Shown: in pieces, positions 4,686 through 32,236 of the stretch
How positions within the stretch are numbered: the first letter of the stretch is position 1
How the letters are laid out: every line of letters begins with the position of its first letter
Origin: a virus
Strand: one strand, 5' to 3'
IMG/VR virus record: IMGVR_UViG_3300037247_001420
Coordinates: 1-32,236 of that record
Length of the DNA stretch: 32,236 nt
Notes under the pieces: generated by a model
Told to the model about the DNA's origin: nothing
Seen by the model: only the letters and a program-made list of their open reading frames with translations
Databases searched by the model: none
Position numbers and translations under genes: made by a program

Positions 4686-4767
4686 TAAAAAAAAGAGTTT
4701 ATCAGCTCTTTTTTTTAAAGGAGATTAAGCAAACGAACACCCATTGTCGATTGCACATTTAATTATA
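4686..4767 (-). ncRNA. candidate small RNA unit 2 (promoter 4767-4762, terminator 4716-4687)
   Basis: On the - strand an extended -10 box (TATGGTATAAT, hexamer at 4762-4767) is followed about 45 nt later by the 4687-4716 terminator, giving a transcript of roughly 70 nt with no ORF. The transcript contains TTAATCTCCTTTAAA, complementary to the SD sequences AAAGGAGATT used before 2174 and 3362. The -35 is poor; existence and role are inferred. Confidence 0.3.
4687..4716. terminator. bidirectional rho-independent terminator
   Basis: Perfect 11-bp stem (4687-4697 with 4706-4716) with an 8-nt loop. Runs of A on one arm and T on the other let it work on both strands. It ends the late operon on the + strand and a possible small RNA on the - strand. 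Confidence 0.85.
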
Positions 4768-4776
4768 CCATAAATT

Positions 4777-4816: not shown

Positions 4817-4904
4817 AAGGTGATCTAAAATAGATAGTTAAGATAATTTTGTTTAGCTTACTGACATAGCTTAGATTTATCAAAATTACCCTATATTAAT
4901 TATA
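4777..4904 (-). ncRNA. candidate small RNA unit 1 (promoter 4904-4899, terminator 4816-4777)
   Basis: A - strand extended -10 box (TATGCTATAAT, hexamer 4899-4904) leads into about 115 nt without an ORF that ends at the 4777-4816 terminator. The body contains an 8-bp closing stem (TAATTTTG with CAAAATTA). The -35 region is weak, so this is a prediction. Confidence 0.3.
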
Positions 4905-4918
4905 GCATACATTTTCAA

Positions 4919-7470: not shown

Positions 7471-7507
7471 TGTTTAATCCCCTTTTTTTTAATTATCTTA
7501 CAATTTA

Positions 7508-7536
7508 ATTATAACATACTATATGTAGTATGTTAA
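7508..7536 (-). promoter_or_regulatory. early promoter with embedded palindromic operator
   Basis: On the - strand: -35 TTAACA (7536-7531), 17-nt spacer, extended -10 TGTTATAAT (hexamer 7513-7508). The spacer is filled by a palindrome with 9-bp arms (7513-7521 and 7526-7534, AACATACTA/TAGTATGTT), so a bound repressor would block RNA polymerase. The palindrome matches the core of the one at 14172-14193. Confidence 0.75.
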
Positions 7537-14122: not shown

Positions 14123-14160
14123 TTTAAATCTCCTTATTTTAAGCTAATAAATTCTTGCTT

Positions 14161-14204
14161 AAAATAATTATAGCATACTATCCGCAGTATGCTATAATTA
14201 TTTT
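14161..14204. promoter_or_regulatory. 44-bp perfect palindrome with back-to-back extended -10 boxes
   Basis: Two perfect 19-bp arms (14161-14179 and 14186-14204) around a 6-nt centre. Each strand reads TATGCTATAAT, so it may fire in both directions; leftward it would serve the ATPase-recT-MBL genes. The inner 22 bp share the AnCATACTA half-site and spacing with the operator at 7513-7534, which suggests one regulator binds both. Confidence 0.65.
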
Positions 14205-14553
14205 ATAATTTGTAACTGATTGTTGTTTTTGTTTCTTCGGGTTCGCAAAAACTTTGATATAATTCTTTATAATTTTTCTCAAGGTCTTTTTCATTAAAAA
14301 CTTCTTTTGTTGTAACTTTCGTGTAATAGTGAGTTGATGAAATTTCTGGATGTTGTTTAGAAAAATCTTTTAACTTAAATTTTGTTGATGTTACTGTTCT
14401 TGTTTTAAAAGTAACATTATCTTCTTCATAAGTTTTGATTTTGTTAGTTCGCATTTCATCTTTAATAACGTCTAAAATTTGTGTTTCCTCTTCATTCAAT
14501 TCTTTGCGTTTTAATTCGATTGATCTCAATCTCTCAATCATTGTCATTGTCAT
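14203..14553 (-). CDS. hypothetical recombination-module protein (Gp157/nuclease-inhibitor-like layout)
   Basis: 116 residues: a charged N-terminal helix (RLRSIELKRKELNEEETQIL) followed by a beta-rich part with TYEEDNVTFKTRTVTSTKF and FSKQHPEISSTHYYTKV. The layout helix + KIKTYEEDNVTF + LKxxxPEIxxxYxK resembles proteins often found beside recT and ATPase genes in Bacillota phages (sometimes labelled Gp157-like or nuclease inhibitor). SD AAGGAGAATACCA. Starts inside the end of the upstream gene (20-nt overlap). Confidence 0.6.
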   Translation of the reverse strand: MTMTMIERLRSIELKRKELNEEETQILDVIKDEMRTNKIKTYEEDNVTFKTRTVTSTKFKLKDFSKQHPEISSTHYYTKVTTKEVFNEKDLEKNYKELYQSFCEPEETKTTISYKL

Positions 14554-14890
14554 TGGTATTCTCCTTTTTTATTTTTTCTAGCATCTCATTCATTAATTTT
14601 GTCGATCTTTTTTCTACAATAGAAGTTTTAAATTCTATATATTTATCAATAAGATCTGAAATTTTTTGTTCTTTTATCCCGAGATTAGCCATAAATTGTT
14701 TTAATAAAAGCATATTAATCGCTATTGCATCGACCATGTTACTTTTTACAATTGATTTTTTTGTGTTTGAAACATAAAAATATTGTAAAGTAGCTTTCAT
14801 CATTTTACTTTGAAAATTTACTAGCATCATTATTTGCTCCGTAGCTCCATAATATTTAAAAATCTTTGCTAATTTATCGTTTTGTGTCAT
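14534..14890 (-). CDS. MazG-like all-alpha protein, probably non-catalytic
   Basis: 118 residues. The order KYYGATEQIMMLVNFQSKMMKA, then SNMVDAIAINMLLLKQFMANLG, then KISDLIDKYIEFK matches the scaffold of phage MazG-like pyrophosphohydrolases (YGxxxQxxxLxEExxELxxA, EMADVxIxxEQ, K-x-x-R), yet the metal-binding glutamates and aspartate are replaced by N, Q, S and A. It may bind nucleotides without hydrolysis. SD AAAGGAGAATTAAA. The C-terminal tail is Asn/Asp repeat-like. Confidence 0.55.
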   Translation of the reverse strand: MTQNDKLAKIFKYYGATEQIMMLVNFQSKMMKATLQYFYVSNTKKSIVKSNMVDAIAINMLLLKQFMANLGIKEQKISDLIDKYIEFKTSIVEKRSTKLMNEMLEKIKKENTNDNDND

Positions 14891-14905
14891 TTTAATTCTC
14901 CTTTT

Positions 14906-15172
14906 TTATTTTCTATCCAATATAGTGCGAATATTTGCTTCTACATCATCTCCCACTTCGTAATTATCGCGAAACTGAACCACTCGCCAAGAGCCTAGAA
15001 TACTTAAATAGGGCATACATTTAGATAATTCAGATAGTTTATTTTTTGCTTCCTGTTCACTATAAAAATATTCTGCATCTGAAATTTCAGTTACTATTTG
15101 ATCTTTCTTGTTTATAAAATTAGCCCCTGAAAATAATTGAGGACACTTAAGAAACCATTTACTATATTCCAT
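14906..15172 (-). CDS. hypothetical protein
   Basis: 88 residues with an N-terminal WFLKCPQLFSGANFINKK segment and a helix YFYSEQEAKNKLSELSK. Its ATG overlaps the stop of the preceding gene by one base. No family recognised. Confidence 0.6.
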   Translation of the reverse strand: MEYSKWFLKCPQLFSGANFINKKDQIVTEISDAEYFYSEQEAKNKLSELSKCMPYLSILGSWRVVQFRDNYEVGDDVEANIRTILDRK

Positions 15173-15423
15173 TATTCATCATCATTTTTATTTCCAAGAT
15201 GCCACCCATATACGATATGATAAAAATTAACTTCGATTACACTGTCATACTTCATACATTTTTTAATTTGCATTAATTTTTTTTTAAAGCGTTTAACAAT
15301 ATATTCATAACCATTATCATTACTTTTTAATACAACAAGCCCCATATTTAAATCGTCAATATCACATAAAAAACTTTGTAAATCATCGTATGCTACTAAT
15401 TCTAATCCCATTGTTAATTTCAT
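15172..15423 (-). CDS. hypothetical protein
   Basis: 83 residues, mixed alpha/beta, ending in a polar NKNDDE tail. SD is GGGAGAATAAAAA. It starts four bases after the 58-aa gene and overlaps the next by one base. No family recognised. Confidence 0.6.
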   Translation of the reverse strand: MKLTMGLELVAYDDLQSFLCDIDDLNMGLVVLKSNDNGYEYIVKRFKKKLMQIKKCMKYDSVIEVNFYHIVYGWHLGNKNDDE

Positions 15424-15426
15424 TTT

Positions 15427-15603
15427 TTATTCTCCCTTTTTTTGAAAAATTTTGTTAAAAAATGATACTTCTAAACTTTTAAAATTAATATTTTTTAATA
15501 TATATTCGTCCGGATAATTTTCACTTTTAACAATTTTTATTAGCTTCCATTCCATATCGTTATAACGATGAATAAAAATATCACCAATTTTATAATTTAC
15601 CAC
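15427..15603 (-). CDS. 58-aa hypothetical protein with GTG start
   Basis: A small gene starting at a GTG, preceded by GGAGGAG with 8-nt spacing; the ATG nearer the SD opens only a four-codon frame. Sequence begins VNYKIGDIFIHRYNDMEWKL, a beta-rich start with a Tyr/Trp pattern, and ends QKKGE. It lies directly after the 57-bp terL-derived repeat. No family recognised. Confidence 0.6.
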   Translation of the reverse strand: MVNYKIGDIFIHRYNDMEWKLIKIVKSENYPDEYILKNINFKSLEVSFFNKIFQKKGE

Positions 15604-15618
15604 TGCTTCATCTCCTCC

Positions 15619-15675
15619 CTAGCCCGCGAAAAAGTCGCGATGATCAATATCAATAACAATAAAATTTTTATTTAT
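15619..15675. repeat. 57-bp exact copy of a terL segment inside the early operon
   Basis: Identical, same orientation, to 19698-19754, which encodes terL residues 401-419. Here it is intergenic except for its last 8 bases, which encode the end and stop of the initiator gene on the other strand. Because this operon is transcribed leftward, its RNA carries 57 nt complementary to terL mRNA. It contains a CGCGA/TCGCG hairpin at 15625-15639. Confidence 0.9.
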
Positions 15676-16084
15676 TGGTTGTTGGCCGCAACCAATTATA
15701 GTATGCTTTCATCTTATCGTCCTTATCGTCCTTATCGTCTTTAGTATCTTTGTTAATGTCGTTTTTGGTCGAATCGTTTTGTTGGAATTTATCGTAATTT
15801 AATAATTTGATTAGATGGTAACGATGCTTCCGAACACAAAAAATTGTCTTATTAATTTCTAATTTATTAATGGCGGTTCTAATACTTTGTTTTGATAAGT
15901 TTGTTTCTTTTTCTAATCGATTTAATGTTGTCAAAAATTCACCCTTACCACACACATTATTTGCTTCAAAATGAGCTTTTAGTAAAAAATGAATGAATAA
16001 CCTTGCAGTGTTTATATCCGAGTATAAACTCCATTTTAAAATATTTCTATTAATCTTTATCCAATTACCATTAACATTTTTTAT
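15668..16084 (-). CDS. replication initiator, phage O/DnaD-type winged-helix protein
   Basis: About 138 residues. A GTG at 15955 would remove the conserved N-terminus; the frame is open upstream and encodes NGNWIKINRNILKW, SDINTARLFIHFLLKAHF and then GEFLTTLNRLEKETNLSKQS and IRTAINKLE, the classic order of Bacillota phage initiators (xGWIKLxRKIxxW..., INTxxLFxHLLLKAN, GQxxTSxxxLxxxTxLSxQxIRTAL). The only start placed correctly for the SD (AAGGA, 16098-16094) is ATA at 16084; no in-frame ATG exists after the upstream stop. The C-terminus has DDK repeats from a 9-bp tandem repeat (about 15712-15738). Such proteins open the origin and load helicase. Confidence 0.75.
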   Translation of the reverse strand: MKNVNGNWIKINRNILKWSLYSDINTARLFIHFLLKAHFEANNVCGKGEFLTTLNRLEKETNLSKQSIRTAINKLEINKTIFCVRKHRYHLIKLLNYDKFQQNDSTKNDINKDTKDDKDDKDDKMKAYYNWLRPTTNK

Positions 16085-16112
16085 ATGATCACTTCCTTAA
16101 AACTTACAAAAA

Positions 16113-16349
16113 TTATTTAATTTCACTAATTTGTATAGCTGATTTTTCTAAAGCCGAAATTTCTAAATCAAGAGCGTTTGCAATTTTAACAATAGTTTTG
16201 TAGCTTATTGAAAAATCACCCTTTAAATAATGCAAAAGATTTGCGATTGTGCTATGACCCATTCTTTCTGCCATGATTTTCAAAGTATATCCAAGCTCAC
16301 ATCTTTTTCGGTAAATCATTATTCTTGATTTTCGTGTTAATCTATAAAT
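16113..16349 (-). CDS. Cro/CI-type (XRE) helix-turn-helix regulator
   Basis: 78 residues if started at the ATT at 16349, 7 nt after GGAGGTG; the first ATG (16319) is 37 nt from that SD. The HTH core RKRCELGYTLKIMAERMG, then STIANLLHYLKGD, then YKTIVKIANALDLEISALEK is typical of the XRE family. As the only clear regulator in the early region, it is the best candidate for the protein that binds the palindromes at 7513-7534 and 14172-14193. With a short C-terminus it is Cro-like rather than a CI with a cleavable domain. Confidence 0.75.
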   Translation of the reverse strand: MYRLTRKSRIMIYRKRCELGYTLKIMAERMGHSTIANLLHYLKGDFSISYKTIVKIANALDLEISALEKSAIQISEIK

Positions 16350-16384
16350 AGTTAATCACCTCCTTTTTATTGGTAGATTACTAT

Positions 16385-16501
16385 TTAATTATAAATAAAA
16401 TAATAGTAATCGTTATCACAATGTTTTATAGCAAATTTTAAATCGGTTATATGGCTAAAATCATAGTTGCCATCATAGTTTTTGACCCAACACTCTACCA
16501 T
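16385..16501 (-). CDS. 38-aa hypothetical peptide, first gene of the early operon
   Basis: Short gene with a strong SD (AAGGAGG, 7 nt before ATG) directly after the early promoter at 16525-16552. The peptide is polar and tyrosine-rich, with two cysteines and an aromatic end (DYYYFIYN). No family recognised. The position suggests immediate-early expression. Confidence 0.55.
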   Translation of the reverse strand: MVECWVKNYDGNYDFSHITDLKFAIKHCDNDYYYFIYN

Positions 16502-16524
16502 TTATAAAACCTCCTTTTATATCA

Positions 16525-16575
16525 ATTATAACATTCTTATAATTCTTTTTAACACCCCCAAAATAATTATAACAT
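16525..16575 (-). promoter_or_regulatory. tandem early promoters (leftward)
   Basis: Two - strand extended -10 boxes: ATGTTATAAT with hexamer at 16530-16525 (possible -35 TTAAAA 16552-16547, spacer 16) and TATGTTATAAT with hexamer at 16571-16566 (no clear -35). They point to the 38-aa peptide, the XRE regulator and the initiator. Confidence 0.6.
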
Positions 16576-16703
16576 ACATTTACCATTTATTATTTATAGT
16601 GTGAAAATTATTTTAAATGTTTTCAACCATTTTTACGGCTACTAACACAAAGTCTAACACGAACTTTTGATTTTACTAACACAAAGTCGTATCGTTTTGT
16701 TGA

Positions 16704-16712
16704 TGCTATACA
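16704..16712 (+). promoter_or_regulatory. extended -10-like box in iteron module 1
   Basis: TGCTATACA with no good -35; an iteron (16677) lies where an activator or -35 contact would fall, 30 bp upstream. The same arrangement recurs at 16823. Confidence 0.35.
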
Positions 16713-16822
16713 TAGGTTTTGAGAGTTTTCCACATTTTGCTAACACGAACTTTTGATTTTACTAACACAAAGTGTAACACGAACTTTCTCTTACTAACAC
16801 AAAGTCGACCACGATTTATTGG

Positions 16823-16831
16823 TGCTATACA
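16823..16831 (+). promoter_or_regulatory. extended -10-like box in iteron module 2
   Basis: Second copy of TGCTATACA, 31 bp after the iteron at 16795. The conserved placement relative to the iterons suggests activator-dependent rightward transcription. Confidence 0.35.
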
Positions 16832-16947
16832 ACACTTTCAAGGGTTTTTTATTTTCGAACTAACACGAGCATAAGAATGTCTTTAAAGAATTAAATACAA
16901 ATGCATTAACCGTACGCTCGCGAGGAAACGAAAAATTTGTCGAATTA

Positions 16948-16976
16948 TTTACTTATTTGTAATTTTATGGTATTAT
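16948..16976 (+). promoter_or_regulatory. promoter of the late (structural) operon
   Basis: -35 TTTACT (16948-16953), 17-nt spacer, extended -10 TGGTATTAT (hexamer 16971-16976), about 60 nt before the small-terminase start. An 8-bp palindrome CTCGCGAG lies upstream at 16917-16924. Confidence 0.6.
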
Positions 16977-17010
16977 TTGTAATATAACTATTTTTTTGGA
17001 GGTGGATTTA

Positions 17011-17052
17011 TTGAAAATTATAAGAAAAATGATTAGATGGCGAAAAGATTAA
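17011..17052 (+). CDS. 13-aa leader peptide overlapping the small terminase start
   Basis: GGAGGTGG is followed after 5 nt by a TTG that opens MKIIRKMIRWRKD and stops inside the terS gene. The terS ATG (17037) lies within this frame and has only a weak SD of its own. Ribosomes finishing the leader could re-initiate on terS. Alternatively the SD serves terS at long range. Confidence 0.4.
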   Translation: MKIIRKMIRWRKD

Positions 17053-17537
17053 CAAAAAAAGAAATTGATTTAATCCTAAACCGTTATGCGAAAACAATGT
17101 CGATATCAGCTGCAGCAAAATTGGTTGGTCGTTCGTGTTCGTCGGTCAAAAAAGCGATTGAAGACAACGATGAACGGCTGCAAAAATTTATTGGCCAACA
17201 AAAAAAATCAATAGTATCCGCCGAAAAAGTTATCCAGGAATATTGGAATACACTTGACAAACTCTCTAGAACCTCACTGAAAAAACTAGAGATGATGATT
17301 AACGATACTGTAGCTAACGAAGTATCAGTTCGCGACCTTGTGCAGGTTCAAAAAATCCGTGGCGACTTGTTTTACCAGATGAAAGCCATACAAATTAGAG
17401 AACGTGAAGTAATCGTTAAAGAGAAAATGCTGGCGTTGCTCGAAAGCAAGGACATCATCAACGATCCGGTAGAAATCATCAATATAATCAACGAAAATGA
17501 TAGAAGCTTTTACAAAAAAAAGGGGAAAATAAAATGA
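17037..17537 (+). CDS. terS: terminase small subunit
   Basis: 166 residues. The N-terminus (RLTKKEIDLILNRYAKTMSI, then AAAKLVGRSCSSVKKAIED) is a helix-turn-helix like those by which small terminases bind the packaging site. A long helical oligomerisation region follows (about 60-135) and the C-terminus is basic. It is the first late gene, before terL as expected, although two extra genes are inserted between them. Its ATG is preceded directly by an in-frame TAG. Confidence 0.75.
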   Translation: MAKRLTKKEIDLILNRYAKTMSISAAAKLVGRSCSSVKKAIEDNDERLQKFIGQQKKSIVSAEKVIQEYWNTLDKLSRTSLKKLEMMINDTVANEVSVRDLVQVQKIRGDLFYQMKAIQIREREVIVKEKMLALLESKDIINDPVEIINIINENDRSFYKKKGKIK

Positions 17538-18307
17538 AAAAATTTATAGTAATTTTATTTATATTCGCAACAATTTTGATTGGTACAGGTATTGCAATTA
17601 CAAATAATAATTTAAGTAATAATTTAAGTGATCCCGAAACAAATTTGATTGAACATGCAACCTTGCCAGGATATGAAATAATTGATAACCATAACGAATT
17701 TAATGATGATCTTTTTGTAAGAAAATTTTTGATTACCGAACCCGAACATTTTTATCAAATAATTTTACATAGAAAAGATTTGAATAATTTTGATGAGATT
17801 CATTTTTTAAATGATATTGATATGGCTGGCTATGAAATTGATTACAATGAGTACGGAAAATATTTGCTTGAATTTGTAATCGAGGGAAATGGCCATACTA
17901 TTTTTAATTTATCATTATCTGATTATTTATTTACAAATGCACAGTACATGACAATGAAAAATTTAACTTTTGAGAATATTCATTTTTTAAATACTCACTG
18001 GCGAATTGGTCGTGTTTTAAGTTTTTTCGATGTTTTTAGTGGTCACATTGAAAATGTTACAGTTAATGCTAGAATTGATGGTACTAGAGCTCAAAATTCT
18101 TTAGACAAAAATCCACATTATGATTCGTATGAATATGGATTATTTGCGAATACGAGTGGTCTTGCTAAATTTTATGATGTGAATTATCAAATATGTTTTT
18201 ATAATGTCGAAGTAGTTCCCAACAGTAATAATTATTCAAATTTTTTGATAGATCAGAGGGGGTATAATATTTTTGAAAATATAAATGGACAAATAAATAT
18301 ATGCTAG
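17534..18307 (+). CDS. secreted beta-helix/GLUG-like protein inserted between terS and terL
   Basis: 257 residues. MKKFIVILFIFATILIGTGI is an N-terminal signal peptide or membrane anchor. The body has the pattern of right-handed beta-helix surface proteins: FLNDIDMAGY (91-100), VIEGNGHTIFNL (115-126), MKNLTFENIHF (141-151) and HIENVTVNARIDG. Such folds occur in adhesins and polysaccharide-active proteins. It overlaps terS by 4 nt (ATGA). An exported protein here is not needed for packaging, so it looks like a moron altering the host surface, or possibly a virion decoration. No catalytic motif is seen. Confidence 0.65.
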   Translation: MKKFIVILFIFATILIGTGIAITNNNLSNNLSDPETNLIEHATLPGYEIIDNHNEFNDDLFVRKFLITEPEHFYQIILHRKDLNNFDEIHFLNDIDMAGYEIDYNEYGKYLLEFVIEGNGHTIFNLSLSDYLFTNAQYMTMKNLTFENIHFLNTHWRIGRVLSFFDVFSGHIENVTVNARIDGTRAQNSLDKNPHYDSYEYGLFANTSGLAKFYDVNYQICFYNVEVVPNSNNYSNFLIDQRGYNIFENINGQINIC

Positions 18308-18501
18308 ATAAGTTAATAAATATTGTAATATCAATCGTCATGACATATTTAATTACCGGCATACTCATAGCGAGCATACTTCTTATTTATGATGTTGTGG
18401 ACCATACCCGAAAACATACTATCAAAACACATTTTTATCGCTATTTAATCGATATGTTCATGTACCCAATATATTTAATAATCGAAAATCAACGGCAATG
18501 A
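18301..18501 (+). CDS. small membrane protein, partner of the secreted protein
   Basis: 66 residues; hydrophobic helix at about 5-31 and a second amphipathic stretch (YLIDMFMYPIYLIIE) near the C-terminus. Overlaps the upstream gene by 7 nt and terL by 4 nt. No family recognised. With its neighbour it forms a two-gene insert between terminase subunits. Confidence 0.6.
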   Translation: MLDKLINIVISIVMTYLITGILIASILLIYDVVDHTRKHTIKTHFYRYLIDMFMYPIYLIIENQRQ

Positions 18502-19886
18502 GAAAAATAGTGATTGATCCTGCTAAAAACATATTAAATAAATTTAAAGAAGTTTATTATTCGAACGCACACTATATTTATTTAAGTGGTGGGCGTGGTA
18601 GTGGCAAATCAACTGCGATTGCTGAAAAAGTCATTGACAAATTTTTATTAAATGCAGGGTCCAACATAATTTGTTTCCGAAAGCATCAAAATACATTGGT
18701 TGGGAGTTTATATACCGCAATTAAAAAAGCGTATATTCGTAAAGGTGCGATCGAAGGTGTTGATTTTAAATTGATACCTTCACGATTGCGAATTATTGAT
18801 AAGCGGAACGGGACGGGTTTTTTCTTTTTTGGATTAGATGACGTTCAAAAAATAAAATCGTTCGAATTGCCTACAGGTTATCCATTATTTTTAATTATAG
18901 AAGAAGCCCAAGAATTAAAAACCATAGCTGAATTAGATGCGGTTTTAGATGCAATTTATACTTTTAATCGAACGATTTTACCTGAAGGGTTAAGGATACA
19001 AATTATATACATCTTTAACCCACTGGGTAATGAGAACGAAGAGTTTAATATCTGGATAGATAATAAAAAATTACTGAATGATCCGGACGATTTATTCAAT
19101 CATTCGAATTATCAGCATTGTATTGATAATTTTACTGGTAAGAGCTTATTAAGCGAATCGATATTAACCGACATCGAAAAGTTAAAGAAAAATGATTATG
19201 AATTATATCAAAATATATTTTTAGGATTACCAACAGGCAACAAAAATACAATCTATAATCCTGATTTAGTTGATATTGTTGATGAGATTGATGCCAAAAA
19301 AATTGTATGCATGATATCGGTAACCGACGCGGGTTACCTGGTATCAGCTTCAGTCCATCAAATTTGGGCAGTGGATAGACAAAAAAGAATGATATTATTG
19401 GACACATCGTATTATTCCCCAACTCCCAATATCAAAAAAAGGATACCGCGCGATTTGCATGAACACATAATGATTGCTCAAACAAAATATCAACAACTGA
19501 CAGCGCAAGACATTGCTCGTGAACTTCATAATTTTTGCTTAAAGGTAGAACGAAAATATAATCTATTTATTAGCAATCATTATATTGATAGCGCAGAAGG
19601 TGCTTTAAAACCACAATTTAGAAATGATTATGGCATTAACTTTCGGAACGTTAAAAAAGCTTCAAAAGAAGCTATGATTGAAAATTCAAGGATACAACTA
19701 GCCCGCGAAAAAGTCGCGATGATCAATATCAATAACAATAAAATTTTTATTTATGAGATGGGTAAGTATCAGTACAAATTATCCAAAAATAATGAAGATA
19801 AGGATAAACAAAATGTAGTAAAAATCGATGACCATAGCTGTGACACGTTCCAATATGCCTGTATAGCGTTAAAAGAATATTTATAA
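18498..19886 (+). CDS. terL: terminase large subunit
   Basis: 462 residues. ATPase: Walker A GGRGSGKST (31-39), adenine-contact region FRKHQNTL, Walker B LFLIIEEA (about 131-138). Nuclease: VTDAGYL (Asp about 276), YIDSAEGAL (Asp about 362) and DDHSCDTFQYA (about 443-453), the three acidic clusters of the RNase H-like headful/cos nuclease. It belongs to the PBSX/Terminase_3 type by its motif order. Codons 401-419 are duplicated exactly at 15619-15675 in the early operon. Confidence 0.92.
   Translation: MRKIVIDPAKNILNKFKEVYYSNAHYIYLSGGRGSGKSTAIAEKVIDKFLLNAGSNIICFRKHQNTLVGSLYTAIKKAYIRKGAIEGVDFKLIPSRLRIIDKRNGTGFFFFGLDDVQKIKSFELPTGYPLFLIIEEAQELKTIAELDAVLDAIYTFNRTILPEGLRIQIIYIFNPLGNENEEFNIWIDNKKLLNDPDDLFNHSNYQHCIDNFTGKSLLSESILTDIEKLKKNDYELYQNIFLGLPTGNKNTIYNPDLVDIVDEIDAKKIVCMISVTDAGYLVSASVHQIWAVDRQKRMILLDTSYYSPTPNIKKRIPRDLHEHIMIAQTKYQQLTAQDIARELHNFCLKVERKYNLFISNHYIDSAEGALKPQFRNDYGINFRNVKKASKEAMIENSRIQLAREKVAMININNNKIFIYEMGKYQYKLSKNNEDKDKQNVVKIDDHSCDTFQYACIALKEYL
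19698..19754. repeat. 57-bp repeat, copy within the terL coding sequence
   Basis: Exact partner of 15619-15675. It lies in frame within the nuclease half of terL (from codon 401), so this is presumably the parent copy. Confidence 0.9.
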
Positions 19887-19902
19887 ATAGGAAGTGGGAT
19901 TG

Positions 19903-21357
19903 ATGTTTAATACTATGCAGAGCATGGGATTATATGGCCATACTGATAAGGGAACTGAACTTACCAATATCAATGAGATAACGAATAAAAGAATATGGTT
20001 AGGGTTATATAAGGGCTATTGTTCATCGATTCATGACAGCAGTTATTGGACAATAGCTAATCCGAATTTTGGTTATCGAATCGCTAGCTTGGGAATGCCG
20101 AAAAAAGTATGTGAATATTTGGCACAACTTATTTTTAACGATAAAATCGAAATCAATATCAGTGACAATAAATTGAATGAATTCGTAAATCAAGTTTTAA
20201 ACAATAATAATTATATTACCAATGCGCAAGAATACACCGAAAAAATGTTTGCACTCGGCGGTAAATTAGAAATAGTATATTTTGATGGAATTAATATTAA
20301 AATTGATTATTATACGGTTGATCAATTCGAAATATTAGAAAACACTAAAACGATGATTACTAGCATTGTCACTTATAATTACACAAAAAATGACGATGAT
20401 GAAACAATCGTATTGGAAACAACATATATTTTTGATGAAATAGAATCAACAAATTCCATCGAAAATAAGCTTTTTAAATACAATTCAAAAGATAAACCAA
20501 AAACAGAAATTTTATTATCCGAATTTTATCCTGAACTTCAAATTTCATTAAAAATAAATAACATGAAACAGCCAATATTTGTTTATACGAAACCTAGATT
20601 AGCTAACAATATTAATTTTGAAAGTCCTGAAGGCATTTCAATTTACGCAAATAGTATTGATATTTTGCGAGAAATTGACCTTACATACGACGGAATGAAA
20701 CCGGAAAGAGAAAGTGCGGAGCGTAAATTACATTTAGCAGAAAGTGTAATTTTTTCTCATAACGATAGTAAAACCGGTATTCCAATCCGATATTATGATA
20801 GTCGAAAACGGATCTACCAAGGAACAGGGGGCGAAAAAACAACTGCTACCGAATTTGATTTGAGATTAGATAAATTCATTGAGGCCATAACATTTAATTT
20901 ATCTATGCTTAGCATGAATATAGGCTTATCGTCCGGAACATTTGTTTTTAATGGTGTTAGCGTTAAAACGGCTACCGAAATAATTAGCGAGAAGTCGGAT
21001 ACTTTCCGCACAAAGATAAATCACGAAAGCGCAATTAAAATTGGGTTAGAACAATTAATACGCAGCATAATTGATTTAGGCGATTCATTTGAATTGGTTA
21101 CCAAAGTTAACGAATACAAAATCAATATCAAATTCGATGATAGCATCATCATTGACGATGAAAAAATCAGAGAAAATGAGCGACTAGATATTGATTTAGG
21201 GACATTACCGAAAAAGGAATATATCATGATTAATTACAATAAATCTGAACAAGAAGCTGATGAATGGTTAGCACAAATTGAAAGCGAAAATGCTTTAGTT
21301 TTTGATAGTGAGCCTGTTATTGAAGAGGAGGTAATAGAAAATGTCGAAACATCGTAA
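19903..21357 (+). CDS. portal protein (SPP1 Gp6-like)
   Basis: 484 residues from the ATG at 19903, preceded by AGGAAGTGG; a GTG at 19894 falls inside that SD. Motifs IWLGLYKGYCSSIHD, PKKVCEYLAQLIF, then NAQEYTEKMFALGGKLEIVY and TAERK-type helix (ESAERKLHLAESVIF) are those of SPP1-like portals of Bacillota phages. The C-terminus is acidic (EEEVIENVETS). The portal forms the dodecameric DNA channel and docks the terminase. Confidence 0.88.
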   Translation: MFNTMQSMGLYGHTDKGTELTNINEITNKRIWLGLYKGYCSSIHDSSYWTIANPNFGYRIASLGMPKKVCEYLAQLIFNDKIEINISDNKLNEFVNQVLNNNNYITNAQEYTEKMFALGGKLEIVYFDGINIKIDYYTVDQFEILENTKTMITSIVTYNYTKNDDDETIVLETTYIFDEIESTNSIENKLFKYNSKDKPKTEILLSEFYPELQISLKINNMKQPIFVYTKPRLANNINFESPEGISIYANSIDILREIDLTYDGMKPERESAERKLHLAESVIFSHNDSKTGIPIRYYDSRKRIYQGTGGEKTTATEFDLRLDKFIEAITFNLSMLSMNIGLSSGTFVFNGVSVKTATEIISEKSDTFRTKINHESAIKIGLEQLIRSIIDLGDSFELVTKVNEYKINIKFDDSIIIDDEKIRENERLDIDLGTLPKKEYIMINYNKSEQEADEWLAQIESENALVFDSEPVIEEEVIENVETS

Positions 21358-30564: not shown

Positions 30565-32236
30565 ATGGAAAGAAATTTAATCGTAACAATGAAGTTGGAC
30601 GGCGTAGATGCTGAAAGTGTTAAAATGGTTGTTTTGGATGTTAACAATGTATTTAAAAGTGAGGCTGTCACGACTGGCAATTCTTTTAATTCGATACAAT
30701 TATTGTTAAAAGTCCCAAAAAATGTTTATGAATTTGGGACGGCCGTCACAATAACTTTTTCGCATGATAACGATTTTGAAGGTCGACCATTAGTATTTCA
30801 AGGTAGTTTTGATATAAATTTTGATTACTGGACATACAATTTCACATCAGCCGAATTAAATGGTGCAGTTAAAACTAGGACTTCAGAATTAAAGTTTATT
30901 TTAGTATTTAGCTTCACTGAAAATAATCCAGCGAATACAGCAACTAAAAAAGTTGGTTTGTTTAATGATATTTCTAAATTTCCACCAACGATTATTTATG
31001 ATGAAAATTATTATGTATCATTAAATGGACTAATTTATCAGTCCATATCCGGGATATGGACTGACACGGGACTTTTAGAAATTAAAAAAACATCCGGTTC
31101 AATAATTATTACTCAATCCTTAAAAGGTGGATTTTTAGCATCTGTCGAGCCTATCGATGCATCAACAACCGATTTACTTATTGCACAAGTTTCAAAAAAT
31201 ACGGGTGACATTTTAACGATTAATGAATTGCTTGGTATTAACGGAGACAACTTTATTAAAAGTGATTTTGATAATAACTATGCACCCGTAACTATTATTA
31301 GAGATGAAGATATACTAGTAATGAACGATGCCCTTGATAATTTTGCAGTTAAAAGAATTACCATAGCCCAATTACGGGAATTGTTCGGTAGTAACTTCTT
31401 AGGCTACTCCGATTATATTGACTTATTACCTGATCCATTTACCGATCCTGATCTAAACAAAGATATTCCGTTTACAGCTATTGTTATTTTTGAAGGGACT
31501 AGCACAGGTGGTAGTTTAGTTAAGCTATTAACTATTCATCAATGGATAACCGAAACAGGCGACCCTGAGGGTTCACAGTACACATGGTTTGACACAGGTG
31601 AGAAGGGTTTTGTTACACAAGAGGAGTTTGAGGTACTAGAAGCGTTAGTAGCTACTAAGTCCGATAAATCTGATACGGGATTATATGATGAATTTTCAGC
31701 ACCTATAAAAGCTTTGGTTGCTGCTGCTCCCGTACAAACAGAAAGCATAGAAAATGCTGTTGATGTTATTTTTGATAACTCAGCAATAATTGATGCCGGT
31801 AATATGAAAAAAAACTCATACGCAACTTCATCAAATACGATAGTTGATAAAGCATTTTCAGATGAAGATGACAATAACATTAAAGCAACATATGAAACTA
31901 AAACAAATGCTTCAGCACAAATAGCATTAAAACAAAATATTGCCGAACCTTTACTTGGTACGACGGATAAAACTATTCCCGGTAGCATAAACGAGGTTTT
32001 AAGCACTCAGGGAGGGCAAGCAGTTTTAATAGGTAATAATGCAAGCACAATAAGTGCCAATACCGGAAATATTGATGGTAATGCTAGCGATATAACCGAT
32101 TTACAAAATAGTAAAATCAGCGGTGTTATTGTCGAAAAAGATGGTGTATTGCTCGATGGCAATGTTAATAAAATTAATTATACTACTAATATGAGTATAC
32201 TTAATCCAACTCCGGGAGAAATTGAAGTATCAAGCT
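30565..32236 (+). CDS. tail fibre / baseplate upper protein, N-terminal part (continues at position 1)
   Basis: The ATG at 30565 (SD GAGGAT) opens a frame without a stop to the end of the window; after the 127-bp overlap is removed it continues at base 1 to 2160, giving 1,234 residues (515 before the join). The first ~130 residues (VTMKLDGVDAESVKMVVLDV and beta strands) resemble the BppU-type baseplate-anchoring domain. Later segments have KSDKSDTGLYDEFS, TNASAQIALKQNIAEP and TTDKTIPGSINEV, which are common shaft motifs of phage fibres. Confidence 0.82.
   Translation, partial: MERNLIVTMKLDGVDAESVKMVVLDVNNVFKSEAVTTGNSFNSIQLLLKVPKNVYEFGTAVTITFSHDNDFEGRPLVFQGSFDINFDYWTYNFTSAELNGAVKTRTSELKFILVFSFTENNPANTATKKVGLFNDISKFPPTIIYDENYYVSLNGLIYQSISGIWTDTGLLEIKKTSGSIIITQSLKGGFLASVEPIDASTTDLLIAQVSKNTGDILTINELLGINGDNFIKSDFDNNYAPVTIIRDEDILVMNDALDNFAVKRITIAQLRELFGSNFLGYSDYIDLLPDPFTDPDLNKDIPFTAIVIFEGTSTGGSLVKLLTIHQWITETGDPEGSQYTWFDTGEKGFVTQEEFEVLEALVATKSDKSDTGLYDEFSAPIKALVAAAPVQTESIENAVDVIFDNSAIIDAGNMKKNSYATSSNTIVDKAFSDEDDNNIKATYETKTNASAQIALKQNIAEPLLGTTDKTIPGSINEVLSTQGGQAVLIGNNASTISANTGNIDGNASDITDLQNSKISGVIVEKDGVLLDGNVNKINYTTNMSILNPTPGEIEVSS
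32110..32236. repeat. terminal direct repeat, right copy
   Basis: Exact copy of positions 1-127. Removing one copy gives a circle of 32,109 bp. The repeat lies inside an open reading frame in both places and in the same phase. Confidence 0.93.

Follow-up and report, generated by a model that had tools for sequence, protein, structure and literature searches.

In phage PAK_P3, early antisense RNAs over structural genes have been described and proposed to silence them, and the OOP RNA of phage lambda is named in the same study as the classic phage antisense RNA (PMC4933390). In phage T4, terminase-dependent amplification has been described around the pac site, which in this phage occupies the 3′ end of gene 16, encoding the small subunit (PMC3012670). 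Templated insertions or duplication-deletion scars arise by illegitimate recombination in phage and bacterial genomes. Phage recombinases of the RecT/Red type work on short or diverged homology (PMC3945230). Our literature searches returned no paper combining phage terminase with antisense RNAs, and none combining partial terL duplications with illegitimate recombination.

The DNA analysed here (the window, 32,236 nt, IMG/VR record IMGVR_UViG_3300037247_001420) contains a fragment of its own terL in the early region. Positions 15619-15675 are identical to 19698-19754 in 57 of 57 bases and in the same plus strand orientation, and the block corresponds to codons 401-419 (of 462) of the terL ORF (LAREKVAMININNNKIFIY), as the initial annotation had stated. 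We regard the early block as the scar of a single, recent event, either a templated insertion or a duplication-deletion, with a probability of roughly 0.72. Positions 1-127 of the window recur at 32110-32236 with the match ending at 127 bases, and the record forms a single circle of 32,109 bp. The length of the end overlap suggests a k-mer overlap from an assembly with k=127. The features around both copies are listed in Table 1.

Table 1. Features surrounding the two copies of the 57-bp block, with coordinates of the window.
Feature	Position	Strand	Basis and remarks
terL (terminase large subunit), intact	18498..19886	+	PHROG 2, E 1e-31; tblastn about 35% to TerL of the A118/A500 type
Original of the block inside terL	19698..19754	+	ungapped alignment with 10 related TerL proteins
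Derived copy of terL codons 401-419	15619..15675	+	exact match; lies between two early genes that run leftward; leftward RNA would be antisense to terL
DnaD-like / replisome-organizer N-terminal protein, 138 aa if from ATA	15668..16084	-	PHROG 2514, positions 4-133 of 270, E 1.2e-15
58-aa early ORF of no known family with a GTG start, situated downstream of the block	15427..15603	-	ORF list, family search
Shine-Dalgarno GGAGGAG of the 58-aa ORF	15612..15618	-	sequence, scan; directly abuts the block, lies outside it
Perfect 8-bp inverted repeat, ATTGGTTG-7-CAACCAAT	15674..15696	.	right junction; outermost 2 bp of one side inside the block
Leftward promoter motif TATGTTATAATT, extended -10-like, ahead of the early genes	16565..16576	-	motif scan

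An exact-match scan of both strands of the circular unit identified the 57-nt pair as its longest exact repeat, followed by a 34-mer in the repeat cluster at 16.6-16.8 kb, a 24-mer that belongs to a local tandem repeat, and some local palindromes; the remaining dispersed pairs reached at most 18 nt. Apart from the local repeat regions at 16.64-16.82 kb and 22.68-22.74 kb there is nothing comparable, and the 57-bp pair is the only long dispersed repeat in the phage genome. Since 100 simulations with a first-order Markov model gave no repeat longer than 24 nt, the match cannot be of chance origin, which bears out the initial annotation on this point. The same annotation took the lack of drift to imply recent origin or selection, which is too strong towards selection. 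The probability of finding no difference in 57 sites is 0.56 at 1%, 0.32 at 2% and 0.05 at 5% divergence; the exactness is therefore compatible with several percent of neutral divergence and does not imply constraint. A small hairpin within the block (CGCGA-AAAAG-TCGCG, 15625-15639) is present in terL too (sequence and fold).

The encoded TerL is about 35% identical to the terminases of the Listeria phages A118 and A500 (tblastn). Because the stretch encoded by the block aligns without gaps in ten related terminases (...NSRIQLAREKVAMININNNKIFIYEMGKYQYKL... vs ...NVQDLLAQGRFFVLDTPRNKIFLEEHRKYQWD...), the terL copy is, judging from this alignment, the original and the early copy the derived one. 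A likely terS within 17037-18501 encodes 166 aa with a weak helix-turn-helix match, and two extra ORFs lie between this terS-like gene and terL; one of them encodes a 257-aa protein that has an N-terminus of signal-like or membrane type. In the related locus L048, a gene similar in size to the likely terS is found directly before terL.

At the early locus homology ends abruptly on both sides of the block, with only 5 of 30 flanking positions matching on each side, and flank homology is thus absent from both breakpoints. The last two codons and the TAA stop of the DnaD-like gene lie wholly or partly in the block; the copy had been called mostly non-coding, which is nearly right except for the first 8 nt on the minus strand, which form the end of this gene including the TAA. 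When the flanks are joined without the block, the DnaD-like frame ends with ...RPTTRRR-TGA inside the spacer between Shine-Dalgarno and start of the 58-aa ORF. This is a compact junction like those between neighbouring genes (gaps of 3, -1, 15 and -20 nt), compared to a present gap of 64 nt, and the block therefore fits an insertion into a formerly tight gene junction, possibly with loss of ancestral sequence. The two outer pairs of the inverted repeat at the right junction depend on block bases, and the repeat is possibly a fork-stalling feature. We considered whether the insertion had truncated the DnaD-like gene, which is unproven: most of the annotated homologues looked at have 229-261 aa, and one has 128 aa. 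The consecutive genes for an HTH_3 protein (16113-16343, minus strand) and the DnaD-like protein seem to start with ATT and ATA, respectively. Both codons are preceded at normal spacing by strong Shine-Dalgarno sites (AAAGGAGGTGAT and AAGGAAGTGATC, respectively), and the DnaD-like homology reaches upstream of the first ATG, GTG or TTG. Rare start codons such as ATT and ATA are known from IF3-sensitive genes.

On the scar reading, a copy of 57 bp of terL would have been placed where the DnaD-like gene meets the 58-aa ORF, probably during phage replication or recombination. The polymerase template might have switched to terL and back again, or a tandem duplication that fused 19754 to 15676 might have preceded a deletion fusing 15618 to 19698, and both routes would yield the identical product. 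The phage encodes a RecT-like annealing protein as well as an SbcC-like subunit. The block would have persisted because the Shine-Dalgarno and start of the next gene were spared and only the last residues and stop of the preceding gene were altered. In being a short exact copy of a distant locus with abrupt ends, no homology beyond them and a one-off occurrence, the block resembles templated insertions and duplication-deletion scars; it differs from them in that no ancestral empty site or microhomology is demonstrable here. Such a scar is most likely neutral. It would represent a snapshot of phage genomes capturing their own pieces at gene junctions, where a captured piece can supply the stop codon of a neighbour and an accidental antisense overlap.

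Gene-like ORFs from 16.3 kb to about 5 kb are all oriented leftward. Early transcription had been claimed to run leftward through the block; the ORF directions and the leftward extended -10-like motif at 16576-16565 are the only signs of this, and early leftward transcription across the block appears plausible, with read-through from 16576 as a possible source. In a consensus scan, neither a promoter-like site immediately upstream of the block (minus strand) nor a terminator-like site at the block itself was identified, and searches for Rfam families and tRNA/tmRNA genes gave no match. The leftward motif TATGnTATAATT is enriched, with 15 matches vs 6.0 expected in shuffles, and its copies at 4761-4772, 4898-4909, 7507-7518, 14166-14177 and 16565-16576 probably represent an early promoter type with an extended -10. 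A candidate internal promoter at about 15690 (GCATACTATAATT) was rejected, since the TG of the phage motif is missing from it and the motif scan did not report it even with one mismatch allowed. At 14160-14205, between two early genes, we found a perfect 20-bp inverted repeat with a 6-nt loop, each arm of which has TATGCTATAATT on one strand, and which could be a divergent promoter pair or a bidirectional terminator. A cluster of ACTAACACAAAGT / CTAACACGAACTTTTG repeats at 16640-16821, between the leftward early and the rightward late genes, is possibly a replication origin (iterons) or an operator region.

The direction of the copy does allow antisense pairing with terL mRNA, as had been proposed, with a predicted interaction of -102.6 kcal/mol over the 57 complementary nt. 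Early leftward RNA might accordingly delay terminase, through RNase III cleavage or a translation block, until the early RNA falls, or late mRNA might destroy leftover early mRNA. The position of the block among successive early ORFs pointing leftward, with a promoter-like motif ahead of it, would suit this, but both versions taken jointly are unlikely. The block has no promoter-like or terminator-like site of its own, its RNA fold is ordinary (z -0.38), and the target lies about 1.2 kb into terL, not at the translation start or another control site. It is also a single instance: no other early/late complementarity exceeds 14 nt, which argues against a general antisense strategy, and distant relatives show no analogue. 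Lambda OOP resembles the locus in the idea of a small phage antisense RNA, but has its own promoter and a cis overlap, neither of which was found here. The early RNAs of PAK_P3, antisense to late packaging or structural genes, set a precedent for the would-be functional outcome; however, they are nearly all cis-encoded inside genes, 15 of 20 in the structural region, and their early expression was measured (PMC4933390), whereas here a relocated 57-nt copy would be the source. It is similarly doubtful that the relocated fragment was co-opted as a trans-acting early antisense element holding back terminase, or clearing early mRNA, until the early-to-late switch. If true, this would outline how a duplication can evolve, by a simple route, into an antisense regulator that acts on late genes in trans.

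That a chimeric molecule or a misassembly placed the terL piece in the early region is improbable as well. The block is seen in one metagenomic record only, and near-identical records may be absent from the searches, but a misassembly through repeat collapse is unlikely, as the k of 127 suggested by the end overlap exceeds the repeat length; with this k, 57 bp would be too short for a de Bruijn misjoin and both flanks would require spanning support. A chimera would need two joins and yet still yield a tight gene junction. The direct repeats might instead serve as a recombination substrate, amplifying or excising the 4,079-bp segment between them (the repeat-rich region, the putative terS and most of terL), loosely like the amplification of T4 gene 17 (terL) around the pac site (PMC3012670), with which it would share repeats near terminase genes that could recombine. 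The shared orientation, the length of 57 bp and the encoded RecT-like protein are in accordance with this very improbable reading. However, amplified units would carry a terL cut after codon 419, an excised genome would lose the first 400 codons of terL, and no alternative junction is apparent in the record; amplification in T4 is terminase-dependent, whereas the segment duplicated here would lack an intact terL. Recombination between the repeats would more probably be a consequence of the repeat than the reason for it. Least credible is a packaging (pac or cos) site duplicated in the early region: the source gene is a terminase, but nothing marks terL codons 401-419 as such a site, whereas that of T4 is in the small-subunit gene and other pac sites are generally found in or near terS. 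Terminase delay, recombination site and packaging site, all suggested in the initial annotation, thus found no positive support, also in view of the missing counterpart of the terL fragment among the terL-centred relatives checked. Its last alternative, a fresh duplication, is favoured by the exact copy, the unrelated flanks and the terL stretch being native in ten relatives.

Scans of IMG/VR with terL, RecT and the DnaD-like gene and of GTDB contigs with terL returned no close relatives, and MCP scans returned only relatives at 31-44%. The TerL proteins of relatives are 32-38% identical. As these searches yielded only distant relatives (best TerL 38%, best MCP 44%) and no close relative with an empty insertion site, the event is neither polarised at that site nor dated. 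An exact search of IMG/VR with 27 nt of the block gave no match, nor did blastn of 14500-20500 against phages or of 15560-15760 against plasmids. We surveyed 80 terL-centred IMG/VR loci together with MCP-centred loci for exact repeats of at least 24 nt and more than 500 bp apart. The count comprised 104 loci with a length of 8 kb or more (1.96 Mb in total, with many near-duplicates); shorter loci were excluded, among them L048 with the closest TerL (38%). Repeats of this kind occurred in 10 of the 104 loci, several within repeated or paralogous genes (e.g. L078, L108, L115), and the longer ones that were checked were paralogous genes. A 182-bp repeat in the Listeria prophage L078 was rejected as an analogue, being the 5′ part that two paralogous genes have in common, in frame. 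None of the repeats in the 104 loci, whose phages are all distant relatives, overlapped terL, and no second isolated out-of-context gene fragment was found among them. Out-of-context exact repeats of this length therefore appear to be rare, though not biologically strange; the rarity is compatible with a scar yet leaves room for selection. L047 (PP511318.1, Dulem virus 31), a tailed-phage genome of 35.8 kb with tail tape measure and baseplate genes, is filed as Microviridae, apparently a taxonomy slip.
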